Shown piece after piece: positions 23,759 to 25,764 of a stretch of DNA of 64,000 bases (position 1 is its first letter; the number at the start of each line of letters is the position of its first letter). Location: NCBI RefSeq assembly GCF_017084525.1, contig NZ_CP070950.1:1054001-1118000 (forward strand), in the 5' to 3' direction. Source of the stretch: Conexibacter sp. SYSU D00693. GTDB lineage: Bacteria; Actinomycetota; Thermoleophilia; Solirubrobacterales; Solirubrobacteraceae. Both the position numbers and the translations under genes were made by a program. The notes under the pieces are model-generated. The model ran no database searches, was not told the DNA's origin, and was given only the letters and a program-made list of their open reading frames with translations.

Positions 23759-25150
23759 CTACGCGGGAGCGGGCGCGGCGGCAGGCGCGCGGCCCGCGGG
23801 CGCGGGACGCAGGAGCAGGGCCACCACGCCCGACGCGAGCGACGCCGCGACGGCGAAGGCGTACGCGTCGTCGGCATGGGCCAGCGCCTCGGCCAACGAC
23901 CTCGGGTCGCCGACGATCGCGACGAGGATCGCCGTCCCGAGCACCGCCCCGATCTGGCGGAAGGCCGACGCGACGGCGCTCGCGGCGCCGAAGCGGTCGG
24001 GCTCGACGTCGGCCACGGCCGCCGCCCCGAGGGTCGGGAAGGCCAGCCCGATGCCGACGCCCACGAGCAGCATGCCGGGCAGCCACGTCCCCACGTAGTC
24101 CGGCTCCGCGCCCGCCGAGCGCAGGACGAGCAGGCCCGCGGCGTAGGCGATCGTCCCGGGGACGATCACCGCCCGGTGGCCGACGCGGTCGGCGAGGCGC
24201 CCCGCGGGCCCCGCCACGATCGCCGACACCAGCGGCCCCGGCACGGTCGCCAGGCCGGCGTCCAGGACGCTGTAGCCCCAGACCGACGTGAGGAACAGGA
24301 TGTTGCCGAGGATCGTCGAGAAGAAGGCCGCGGCGAAGAGCAGCGTCCCGACGTTCGCAACGCGGAACGAGCGGATCGCCATGAGCGCCGGGTCCACGAC
24401 CGGCCGCGGGTGGGTCGTGCAGCGTCGGGCGACCGCGGCGAGGGCGACGAGCGCGCCGCCCAGGGAGCCCAGGACGCCCGCGCTCGTCCAGCCCCACGAC
24501 TCGCCCTCGACGATCCCGAGCGCCAGCAGCCCCAGGCCGAGGACCGACAGGCCGGCGCCGGCGAGGTCGGGCAGGCCGGCCATCGCCTCGTCCTTGGACT
24601 CGCGCAGCGCGCGGGCGCCCGCGAGGAGGACGAGCCCGCCGAGCGGCACGTTGACCAGGAAGATCCAGCGCCAGTCGGCCACCTCGACGACGAGTCCGCC
24701 CAGCGGCGGGCCGGTCGCGGCCGCGAACGCGGCGGCGGCGCCCCAGATGCCGACGGCGGTCGCGCGCTGCTCACGGGCGAACTCCGGGAGCACGAGCGCG
24801 AGCGAGACCGGGGCGATCACGGCCGCGGCGGCGCCCTGGAGCACGCGCGCGGCGACGAGCGTCTCCCACGACGGCGCCAGGCCGCAGGCGATGCTCGTCA
24901 GGACGAAGGCGCCCACGCCCCAGAGGAAGACGCGCTTGCGCCCGAGCCGGTCGGCCAGCGCGCCCGCGGGCACGAGCAGCGCGGCGAGGACGATGAAGTA
25001 CGCATCGAGCACCCAGCTCAGCTCCGCGCGCCCGGCGTCGTCGAAGGACGCCTGGACGTCCGGGAACGCCGTGTTGACGATCGACGTGTCGAGGAACGCG
25101 AGGTAGCCGCCGGCGCAGGCGACCACCAGGGCGGCGGTGCGTCGTTGCAT
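23759..25150 (-). CDS. MFS drug exporter, DHA2 (14-TM, EmrB/QacA-type) family
   Basis: A 463-residue integral membrane protein with about 14 hydrophobic helices. The N-terminal motif (LAFLDTSIVNTAFPDVQASF) is typical of DHA2 drug:H+ antiporters, and motif A is GALADRLGRKRVF. Substrates are usually hydrophobic drugs, dyes or quaternary amines; the actual substrate is unknown. The start codon at 25150 lies inside an inverted repeat that matches a second repeat upstream, so expression is probably controlled by the divergent HxlR regulator 74 bp away. The transcript ends at the hairpins near 23700. Confidence 0.92.
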   Translation of the reverse strand: MQRRTAALVVACAGGYLAFLDTSIVNTAFPDVQASFDDAGRAELSWVLDAYFIVLAALLVPAGALADRLGRKRVFLWGVGAFVLTSIACGLAPSWETLVAARVLQGAAAAVIAPVSLALVLPEFAREQRATAVGIWGAAAAFAAATGPPLGGLVVEVADWRWIFLVNVPLGGLVLLAGARALRESKDEAMAGLPDLAGAGLSVLGLGLLALGIVEGESWGWTSAGVLGSLGGALVALAAVARRCTTHPRPVVDPALMAIRSFRVANVGTLLFAAAFFSTILGNILFLTSVWGYSVLDAGLATVPGPLVSAIVAGPAGRLADRVGHRAVIVPGTIAYAAGLLVLRSAGAEPDYVGTWLPGMLLVGVGIGLAFPTLGAAAVADVEPDRFGAASAVASAFRQIGAVLGTAILVAIVGDPRSLAEALAHADDAYAFAVAASLASGVVALLLRPAPAGRAPAAAPAPA

Positions 25151-25159
25151 CTTGCAACG
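25143..25159. promoter_or_regulatory. Operator-like inverted repeat 1 (overlaps MFS start)
   Basis: Perfect palindrome CGTTGCA-TCT-TGCAACG. The MFS start codon (minus strand, 25150-25148) is inside it. It shares the pattern CGTTGCR-N3-YGCAACG with the repeat at 25175-25193. The centres are 33 bp apart, about three helical turns, so two dimers could bind on the same face. Confidence 0.75.
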
Positions 25160-25174
25160 GAACGCTAGTGAGGT

Positions 25175-25193
25175 TCGTTGCGATTCGCAACGA
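25175..25193. promoter_or_regulatory. Operator-like inverted repeat 2
   Basis: Palindrome TCGTTGCG-ATT-CGCAACGA with 8-bp arms. It lies 32 bp upstream of the hxlR-like start at 25225 and 25 bp upstream of the MFS start. Occupancy by the HxlR-family regulator would affect both promoters, as in autoregulated repressor and exporter pairs. Confidence 0.75.
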
Positions 25194-25224
25194 GCCCTGC
25201 ACGGGGAGCTAGACTGGCGGTCCG

Positions 25225-25764
25225 ATGCGCCACGACGAGCTCCTCGAGCAGACCTGCGCGATCGGTCGCGCGGGCGCCATCGTGGGCGAGCGCTGGGTCT
25301 TCGCGATCCTGCGCGCCGCCTTCTTCCGCGCCCGGACGTTCGAGGACTACCAGCGTGGCACGGGCGTGGCGCGCAACATCCTCGCCGAGCGCCTCGGCCG
25401 CCTCGTGGACTTCGGGATCCTCGAGCGGGTCCCCTACGCCGAGGGCGCACGGCGCACCCGCCACGAGTACCGCCTGACCGAGGCGGGGCGCGACCTGTAC
25501 CCCGTCGTCATCGCCCTGATGGAGTGGGGCAACAAGCACACGGGCCTCGTCGACGGGCCGCCCGTCGTCCTGCACCACAAGCGCTGCAACCACGTCTCGC
25601 ACCCCCAGGTCGTCTGCTCGGAGTGCGGCGAGCCGGTCGACGCGCGCGACTTCCAGCCGCTGCCGGGCCCGGGGGCGCCGCGCGAGACGCCGCCGTGGGC
25701 GGAGCCGGCGGTGCGCCACGCGCACCGCAAGGCCGCCGCGCCGACCGCGCCGCCTCGCGCGTAG
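25225..25764 (+). CDS. HxlR-family winged-helix regulator with C-terminal zinc-ribbon-like tail
   Basis: A 179-residue protein. Residues about 10-95 form the HxlR winged helix (GERWVFAILRAAFFRARTFE, NILAERLGRLVDFGILERVP, YRLTEAGRDLYPVV). After this comes a tail with HHKRCNH and VVCSECGEPV, giving a possible Cys/His metal site, then a Pro/Ala-rich end. HxlR proteins often sense quinones, aldehydes or other electrophiles through cysteines. C10 and the tail cysteines are candidates. It is divergent from the MFS exporter with two matching operators in the gap, so repression and self-control are likely. The ligand is unknown. Confidence 0.9.
   Translation: MRHDELLEQTCAIGRAGAIVGERWVFAILRAAFFRARTFEDYQRGTGVARNILAERLGRLVDFGILERVPYAEGARRTRHEYRLTEAGRDLYPVVIALMEWGNKHTGLVDGPPVVLHHKRCNHVSHPQVVCSECGEPVDARDFQPLPGPGAPRETPPWAEPAVRHAHRKAAAPTAPPRA

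Follow-up and report, generated by a model that had tools for sequence, protein, structure and literature searches.

The closest described systems are regulators of the HxlR/DUF24 family from Bacillus subtilis, and it is against these that we set an exporter/regulator locus of Conexibacter sp. SYSU D00693, analysed here within a window of 64,000 nucleotides (the whole stretch of DNA under study). The YodB operator is reported to be a palindrome, TACT-N7-AGTA (PMC8063818), which has the same 15-bp span as the GTTGC-N5-GCAAC dyad of our locus but a different half-site sequence. YodB also has the fold of the window regulator (Foldseek 5hs7/5hs8) and an N-terminal cysteine, Cys6 there and, as we infer, C11 here; however, its 112 residues leave no room for the C-terminal tail of the window protein, and it senses quinones and diamide. 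CatR is reported as a repressor of the family for which a single promoter, that of catDE, carries two boxes (PMC6212828); this resembles the arrangement proposed for the window pair, but differs in that catDE is bound by YodB and Fur too. B. subtilis HxlR (7bzd, 7bze, 7bzg) has family, fold and N-terminal cysteine in common with the window regulator, and is described as an activator whose response to formaldehyde runs through a crosslink between Cys11 and Lys13 (PMC7835342). The window protein, in contrast, carries isoleucine at residue 13 and has its sites at a repressor position, and the formaldehyde mechanism was rejected for it because Lys13 is absent. The closest solved structures, PA1607 (2f2e) and PA1374 (4gcv) of Pseudomonas aeruginosa, also have a C-terminal extension, but one that in the alignments lacks the conserved tail cysteines. 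The HxlR/DUF24 family, the 15-bp span (YodB) and the use of two boxes at one promoter (CatR) are already known. Comparative genomics has also correlated operator motifs with regulator residues in the GntR and IclR families (PMC4494728, PMC8222616), following the same logic in other families; HxlR has 0 occurrences in those studies as indexed. Within the open-licence full-text literature, we recognised no earlier account of the half-site, residue code, promoter-framing layout or thioesterase link set out below; a description of the operator or the code elsewhere in the literature is possible.

Between the exporter gene and hxlR (Table 1), the preliminary description of this DNA had placed two matching palindromes, CGTTGCR-N3-YGCAACG, with centres 33 bp apart. 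Both match exactly, with 0 mismatches and centres at 25151 and 25184, a spacing that agrees with the approximately three helical turns it gave. One had been said to overlap the MFS start codon and the other to lie 32 bp before hxlR, and this is where they stand: the ATG (minus strand, 25150-25148) falls inside site 1, and site 2 ends at 25192, ahead of the hxlR ATG at 25225. From the sequence evidence that follows, we consider it very likely that the palindromes serve the adjacent HxlR as operators, through which it would repress the exporter, hxlR and, in trans, a thioesterase gene until an inducer releases it.

Table 1. Features of the exporter/regulator locus, in window coordinates.
Feature	Position	Strand	Basis or remark
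MFS exporter, DHA2/EmrB type	23759..25150	-	TIGR00711 249.6 bits, cut-off 230.2; Pfam MFS_1
Operator site 1 (candidate), CGTTGCATCTTGCAACG	25143..25159	.	0 mismatches; spans MFS start codon; paired counterparts in relatives
Predicted -10, MFS promoter, TAGCGT	25162..25167	-	17 nt from -35; 3 nt before site 1 core
Operator site 2 (candidate), CGTTGCGATTCGCAACG	25176..25192	.	0 mismatches; hxlR-proximal
Predicted -35, MFS promoter, TTGCGA, within site 2	25185..25190	-	offset to TANNNT
Possible hxlR -10, TAGACT, weak	25210..25215	+	offset 33 from site 2 core, usual 24/25
HxlR regulator, 179 aa	25225..25764	+	Pfam HxlR PF01638 62.5 bits, cut-off 20.8
Codons A49-R50-N51, co-varying with half-site	25369..25377	+	R50 opens predicted recognition helix 50-62
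Codons 118-134, H118/C121/C131/C134 tail	25576..25626	+	residue conservation

The AlphaFold2 model of the regulator (mean pLDDT 81, with the recognition helix at residues 50-62) gives Foldseek matches to HypR, YodB, HxlR and QsrR. The C-terminal Cys/His tail reported in the preliminary description is borne out by 21 aligned sequences, in which H118, C121 and C131 are invariant and C134 nearly so, and the pattern HxxC-x(6-14)-Cxx[CGDH] recurs in 160 of 176 homologues. These four residues possibly form a metal-binding ribbon, and the Foldseek list for the model held no ribbon match for the tail. C11, likewise invariant in the 21 sequences, would correspond to the N-terminal cysteine of both YodB and B. 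subtilis HxlR; some members of the HxlR/DUF24 family are known to respond to thiol-reactive or carbonyl compounds. HxlR regulators are common in prokaryotes, as matches in 14 of 14 control genomes attest; the Conexibacter genome itself has eight Pfam HxlR matches.

Exact copies of GTTGC-N5-GCAAC occur at five places in the 4.43 Mb genome (one contig), against 0 for a reversed control, and two of the five are the window pair, 33 bp apart. The search of the genome for further sites that had been suggested as a check thus returns three beyond the pair, one of which heads a hotdog-fold thioesterase gene. The remaining two were rejected as operators and are probably chance occurrences: by eye, 1278674 lies within a coding frame, and 2005054 has no clear adjacent gene start. 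Looser searches are another matter. With 3 mismatches, the window yields 25 matches against a shuffle mean of 24.2, which is chance level, so that loose matches carry no meaning, and the genome search at the same setting (1780 matches per strand, 1116 for the reversed control) is uninformative.

Whether such a dyad belongs to HxlR genes at large can be judged from their upstream regions. Our first set comprised 199 loci with an HxlR gene, encoding 176 distinct proteins: 30 from a 61-genome search, 80 named loci (the best 80 of 577), 29 from a 299-genome search and 60 more from places that the same search had matched. Loci were chosen by protein match, and the first 30 upstream regions were inspected before the remainder were collected. 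In an unbiased census of every 5-mer dyad with gaps of 0-11 in the region -160..+10 of the 176 genes, GTTGC-N5-GCAAC was the commonest, being exact in 40; the next gap-5 words were CTTGC (11), GTTCA (9), GTTCC (6) and GTTTC (5), with a single register throughout. The best match to GTTGC-N5-GCAAC in -80..-15 (n=175) had 0 mismatches at 40 loci, 1 at 23, 2 at 37, 3 at 23, 4 at 42 and 5 at 10. Among the best 80 of 577 named loci, 13 had it exactly (shuffle mean 0.02) and 23 with at most one mismatch (shuffle mean 0.62). For the held-out set, 84 further HxlR proteins were collected at phylum level after the rules had been fixed; this set comes from the same phylum as the first, its independence is incomplete, and it contributed 40 loci with dyads. 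Taking one best dyad per locus, chosen by position as well as palindromy, gap-5 dyads precede 132 of 260 distinct HxlR genes (92/176 in the first set, 40/84 held out), with no confident dyad found at 84/176 and 44/84 loci, respectively. Perfect [GC]TTNN dyads fall at gap 5 in 95 of 260 loci and at any other gap from 0 to 11 in at most 2; mono-shuffling of the same 260 loci gave a mean of 0.43 perfect gap-5 dyads and a maximum of 2.

Nearer relatives preserve the pair itself. Absence of the sites from close homologous loci had been named beforehand as evidence against the prediction; instead, paired sites were found at locus L002, whose HxlR is 63% identical and whose sites lie 34 bp apart, and at L203, where they are separated by 32 bp. 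Both loci have an MFS neighbour, and both HxlR proteins group with that of the window. The 15-base core of site 2 recurs unchanged before homologue L004 and as a one-base variant before L002. Other homologues differ: six Mycobacterium HxlR genes (L068, L076, L081, L082, L085 and L086) follow GTTCA-N5-TGAAC dyads, another specificity with the geometry kept, and the divergent neighbour at L068 is, by eye, acyl-CoA dehydrogenase-like. Upstream of a clade of 17 homologues, mostly from Halieaceae/Luminiphilus (L071, L073-L075, L093, L101, L103-L105, L109-L114, L123 and L126), no GTTGC-N5-GCAAC was found at up to one mismatch.

One reason for assigning the palindromes to the adjacent HxlR, as the preliminary description had done, is that residues 50 and 51 of HxlR change in step with the half-site, which ties the sites to the neighbouring regulator and not to another. 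Across the 92 confident dyads of the 176 loci, excess mutual information is highest at R50 for base 1 and at N51, followed by A49, for bases 4-5. The code itself is given here for 95 perfect dyads (69 from the first set, 26 held out), defined with TT and AA fixed and ends G or C, a definition that restricts base 1 and to which the code as stated is confined. In the first set of these, the top-ranked column is 50 for base 1, 51 for base 4 and again 51 for bases 4-5 together, with column 49 above 51 for base 5 alone; in the 26 held-out dyads, column 51 leads the tested columns for base 4, for base 5 and for the two together, and column 50 is second for base 1, where one C-type only was present. 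Over all 95, R50 accompanies G1 in 75/75 and T50 C1 in 7/7, while S50 divides into 5 G and 5 C; N51 goes with G4 in 60/64 and C5 in 63/64, and C4 goes with P51 (14/14) and K51 (8/8), together 22/22.

Rules set beforehand fared unevenly in the held-out set. R50 kept G1 in 30/30, N51 was accompanied by GC or GT in 13/19 half-site entries, P51 had C at base 4 in 8/8 half-sites with the predicted CA in only 2/8, and K51 gave CC in 1/2; the rule that T or S at 50 gives C1 failed (0/3, all S50). Unforeseen were E or D at 50 with C1 (5/5) and A51 with C4 (12/12 entries). Three held-out proteins with D51 (L300, L302 and L339) stand before GTTGG dyads, with a perfect CCAAC partner in L302 and L339, which suggests a further letter of the code. 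Kinship was allowed for with a tree built without columns 46-54, counting independent pairs on supported branches only. For residue 50 and base 1, an average of 2.9 of 6 pairs ran in the expected direction and 0.0 (rounded) in the opposite one; for residue 51 and base 4 the averages were 3.7 of 4 and 0.0 (rounded, with one opposite pair in some pairings), and neither result is significant because the pairs are too few. Crossed residue-base pairings on the tree gave no trend (1.0 vs 0.9; 0.1 vs 0.2).

Within the Conexibacter genome, the other tail-type HxlR proteins read APN, SRK and PRD at 49-51, and the remaining four SQK, STE, SPR and STS; only the window HxlR carries ARN, which makes it the best candidate regulator of the GTTGC sites. 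More broadly, we think it probable that a short code operates in the tail-bearing HxlR branch, base 1 of a fixed 15-bp dyad being read by residue 50 and bases 4-5 by residue 51 (with 49), such that operator and regulon could be predicted from the protein across Actinomycetota and beyond, with a standard layout in which the proximal operator provides the -35 and a second lies at the start point. A testable residue-to-base code of this sort would allow operators and regulons to be assigned for many uncharacterised HxlR genes.

The promoter evidence behind that layout is as follows. In 36 of 42 site pairs, a few loci contributing two pairs, TANNNT stands toward the divergent gene at offset 24 (26 rows) or 25 (10 rows), counted from where the hxlR-proximal site begins; shuffled spacers gave a mean of 1.3 and a maximum of 5. 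The shared layout, as predicted from sequence, is TTGC as -35, a spacer of 17-18 nt and a -10. At our locus the MFS ATG follows only 11 nt after the predicted -10, which makes a leaderless or almost leaderless exporter transcript probable. The composite of operator, 9-10 nt and TANNNT occurs twice in the whole genome, at the MFS and the thioesterase promoters (control 0). Toward hxlR, offsets 24/25 lead to TANNNT in 25 of 51 sites; the window has its sole TANNNT in this direction at offset 33, and L002 has, by eye, TACGAT at the same offset. Around 63 primary sites (at most one mismatch) we counted 44 second sites with no more than two mismatches, 25 of them 31-35 bp away, 13 at 40-44 bp and 6 elsewhere, and spacings of 17-18 and 22-23 bp also occur. 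The 31-35/40-44 bp spacing accounts for 48/77 in the first set and, more weakly, 10/27 in the held-out set (Rayleigh p 0.16); equal helical phasing as a general law, clear in the former but not in the latter, was rejected. The 33-bp spacing in the window may be set by the promoter, site 2 containing the -35 and site 1 lying at the start point, which is predicted at about 25156-25154.

This coincidence of operator and promoter raises the question of whether a regulator is needed at all, the repeat being no more than a TTGC -35 on both strands of a divergent promoter, read by RNA polymerase alone. The half-site does coincide with the -35, and the -10 is in register; yet all 10 bases of the dyad pair perfectly and at one gap only, a further copy stands close to where transcription of the target gene is predicted to begin, and the half-site shifts to CTTGC, GTTCC or GTTCA with changes in the recognition helix, and we regard a promoter-only origin as extremely improbable. 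Palindromes of such a kind are used by many families, and another regulator of the intergenic region, for example of TetR or MarR type, might be proposed as their owner; this we judge very improbable, given the co-variation with HxlR residues 50 and 51 and the dyads of the same geometry before 132/260 HxlR genes.

A different question is the sign of the effect, as HxlR might bind and activate, or repress one gene and activate the other. Activators usually sit upstream of the -35. The window sites, however, coincide with the predicted -35, spacer and start point of the exporter and with its start codon, and a protein bound there would stand in the way of polymerase. Activation has its precedent in B. 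subtilis HxlR, which is reported to raise transcription once activated by formaldehyde (PMC7835342), but the placing of the sites makes it unlikely here.

Repression by the adjacent HxlR is therefore the reading we develop. The sites, their conservation, the promoter geometry, the co-variation and the trans site are computed observations; from them we infer binding by HxlR, repression rather than activation, cooperativity and release by an inducer. We predict one HxlR dimer per 15-bp dyad, with R50 matched to base 1 and N51 to bases 4-5 in either half-site. At site 2, a dimer would cover the MFS -35 and spacer as well as the DNA immediately before hxlR; a second dimer at site 1, three helical turns off, would cover the MFS start point and start codon. 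Since this coverage takes in both the MFS promoter and the region upstream of hxlR, exporter and regulator would be repressed together, and the same operator would allow repression in trans of the hotdog-fold thioesterase 0.44 Mb away. Most likely, then, HxlR represses the exporter, the thioesterase and itself, and an inducer would release it from DNA; quinones or aldehydes as inducers are a guess.

The thioesterase gene (4HBT; TIGR00369) lies at 1,517,061, with the third genomic GTTGC-N5-GCAAC site before it at G000:C1:1517024-1517038 (L062:1501-1515); the window pair is 0.44 Mb away. The thioesterase promoter has the sequence GTTGCGTTTCGCAAC-9-TAGCGT-7-ATG, no HxlR gene is nearby, and the gene is likely a trans target of the window HxlR. 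In a survey of 30 homologue loci from 81 genomes, our own gene included, 12 thioesterase loci lay within 3 kb of an HxlR place found in the 61- and 299-genome searches. Of the 18 others, without a listed HxlR within 3 kb, 5 had an operator with no more than two mismatches in the nearest 150 bp, and 13 had no site in that distance; the site-less thioesterases of G001 and G006 lie ~1.4-1.5 kb below an operator fronting an MFS gene. In a post hoc comparison, each of the 5 remote operators is similar to an operator that precedes an HxlR gene in its own genome: the likeness is close in our own genome, in G223 (CTTGC in both) and in G035 (an ACAAC arm in both), and weaker in G254 and G017, where the GTAGC arm of the HxlR operator is missing from the thioesterase operator and there are several HxlR genes each.

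By a mechanical rule, a divergent ORF of 100 codons or more accompanies 155 of 176 HxlR genes, and the largest neighbour clusters are 32 MFS genes, 23 with a site (at most one mismatch), and a 14-member thioesterase-like cluster, identified from two members read and from genomic linkages, with 11. An MFS neighbour is associated with the site (23/32 vs 40/143; Fisher p 8e-6). Across 121 family genomes, we counted 35 strand matches to the composite of operator, 9-10 nt and TANNNT, spread over 26 places, whereas the reversed pattern had 3; the 30 matches inspected (25 places) stood 14 before MFS, 10 before HxlR, 2 before thioesterase and 4 before other genes, among them two oxidoreductases. Taken as targets, the exporter, the thioesterase and the SDR and FAD oxidoreductases may reflect a common response to chemical stress, and should this hold, its signal could be sought. 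The two oxidoreductases are an SDR enzyme and an FAD-dependent one (L370:840-1493 and L352:3-905, minus strand), which start 7 and 6 nt, respectively, after a perfect composite.
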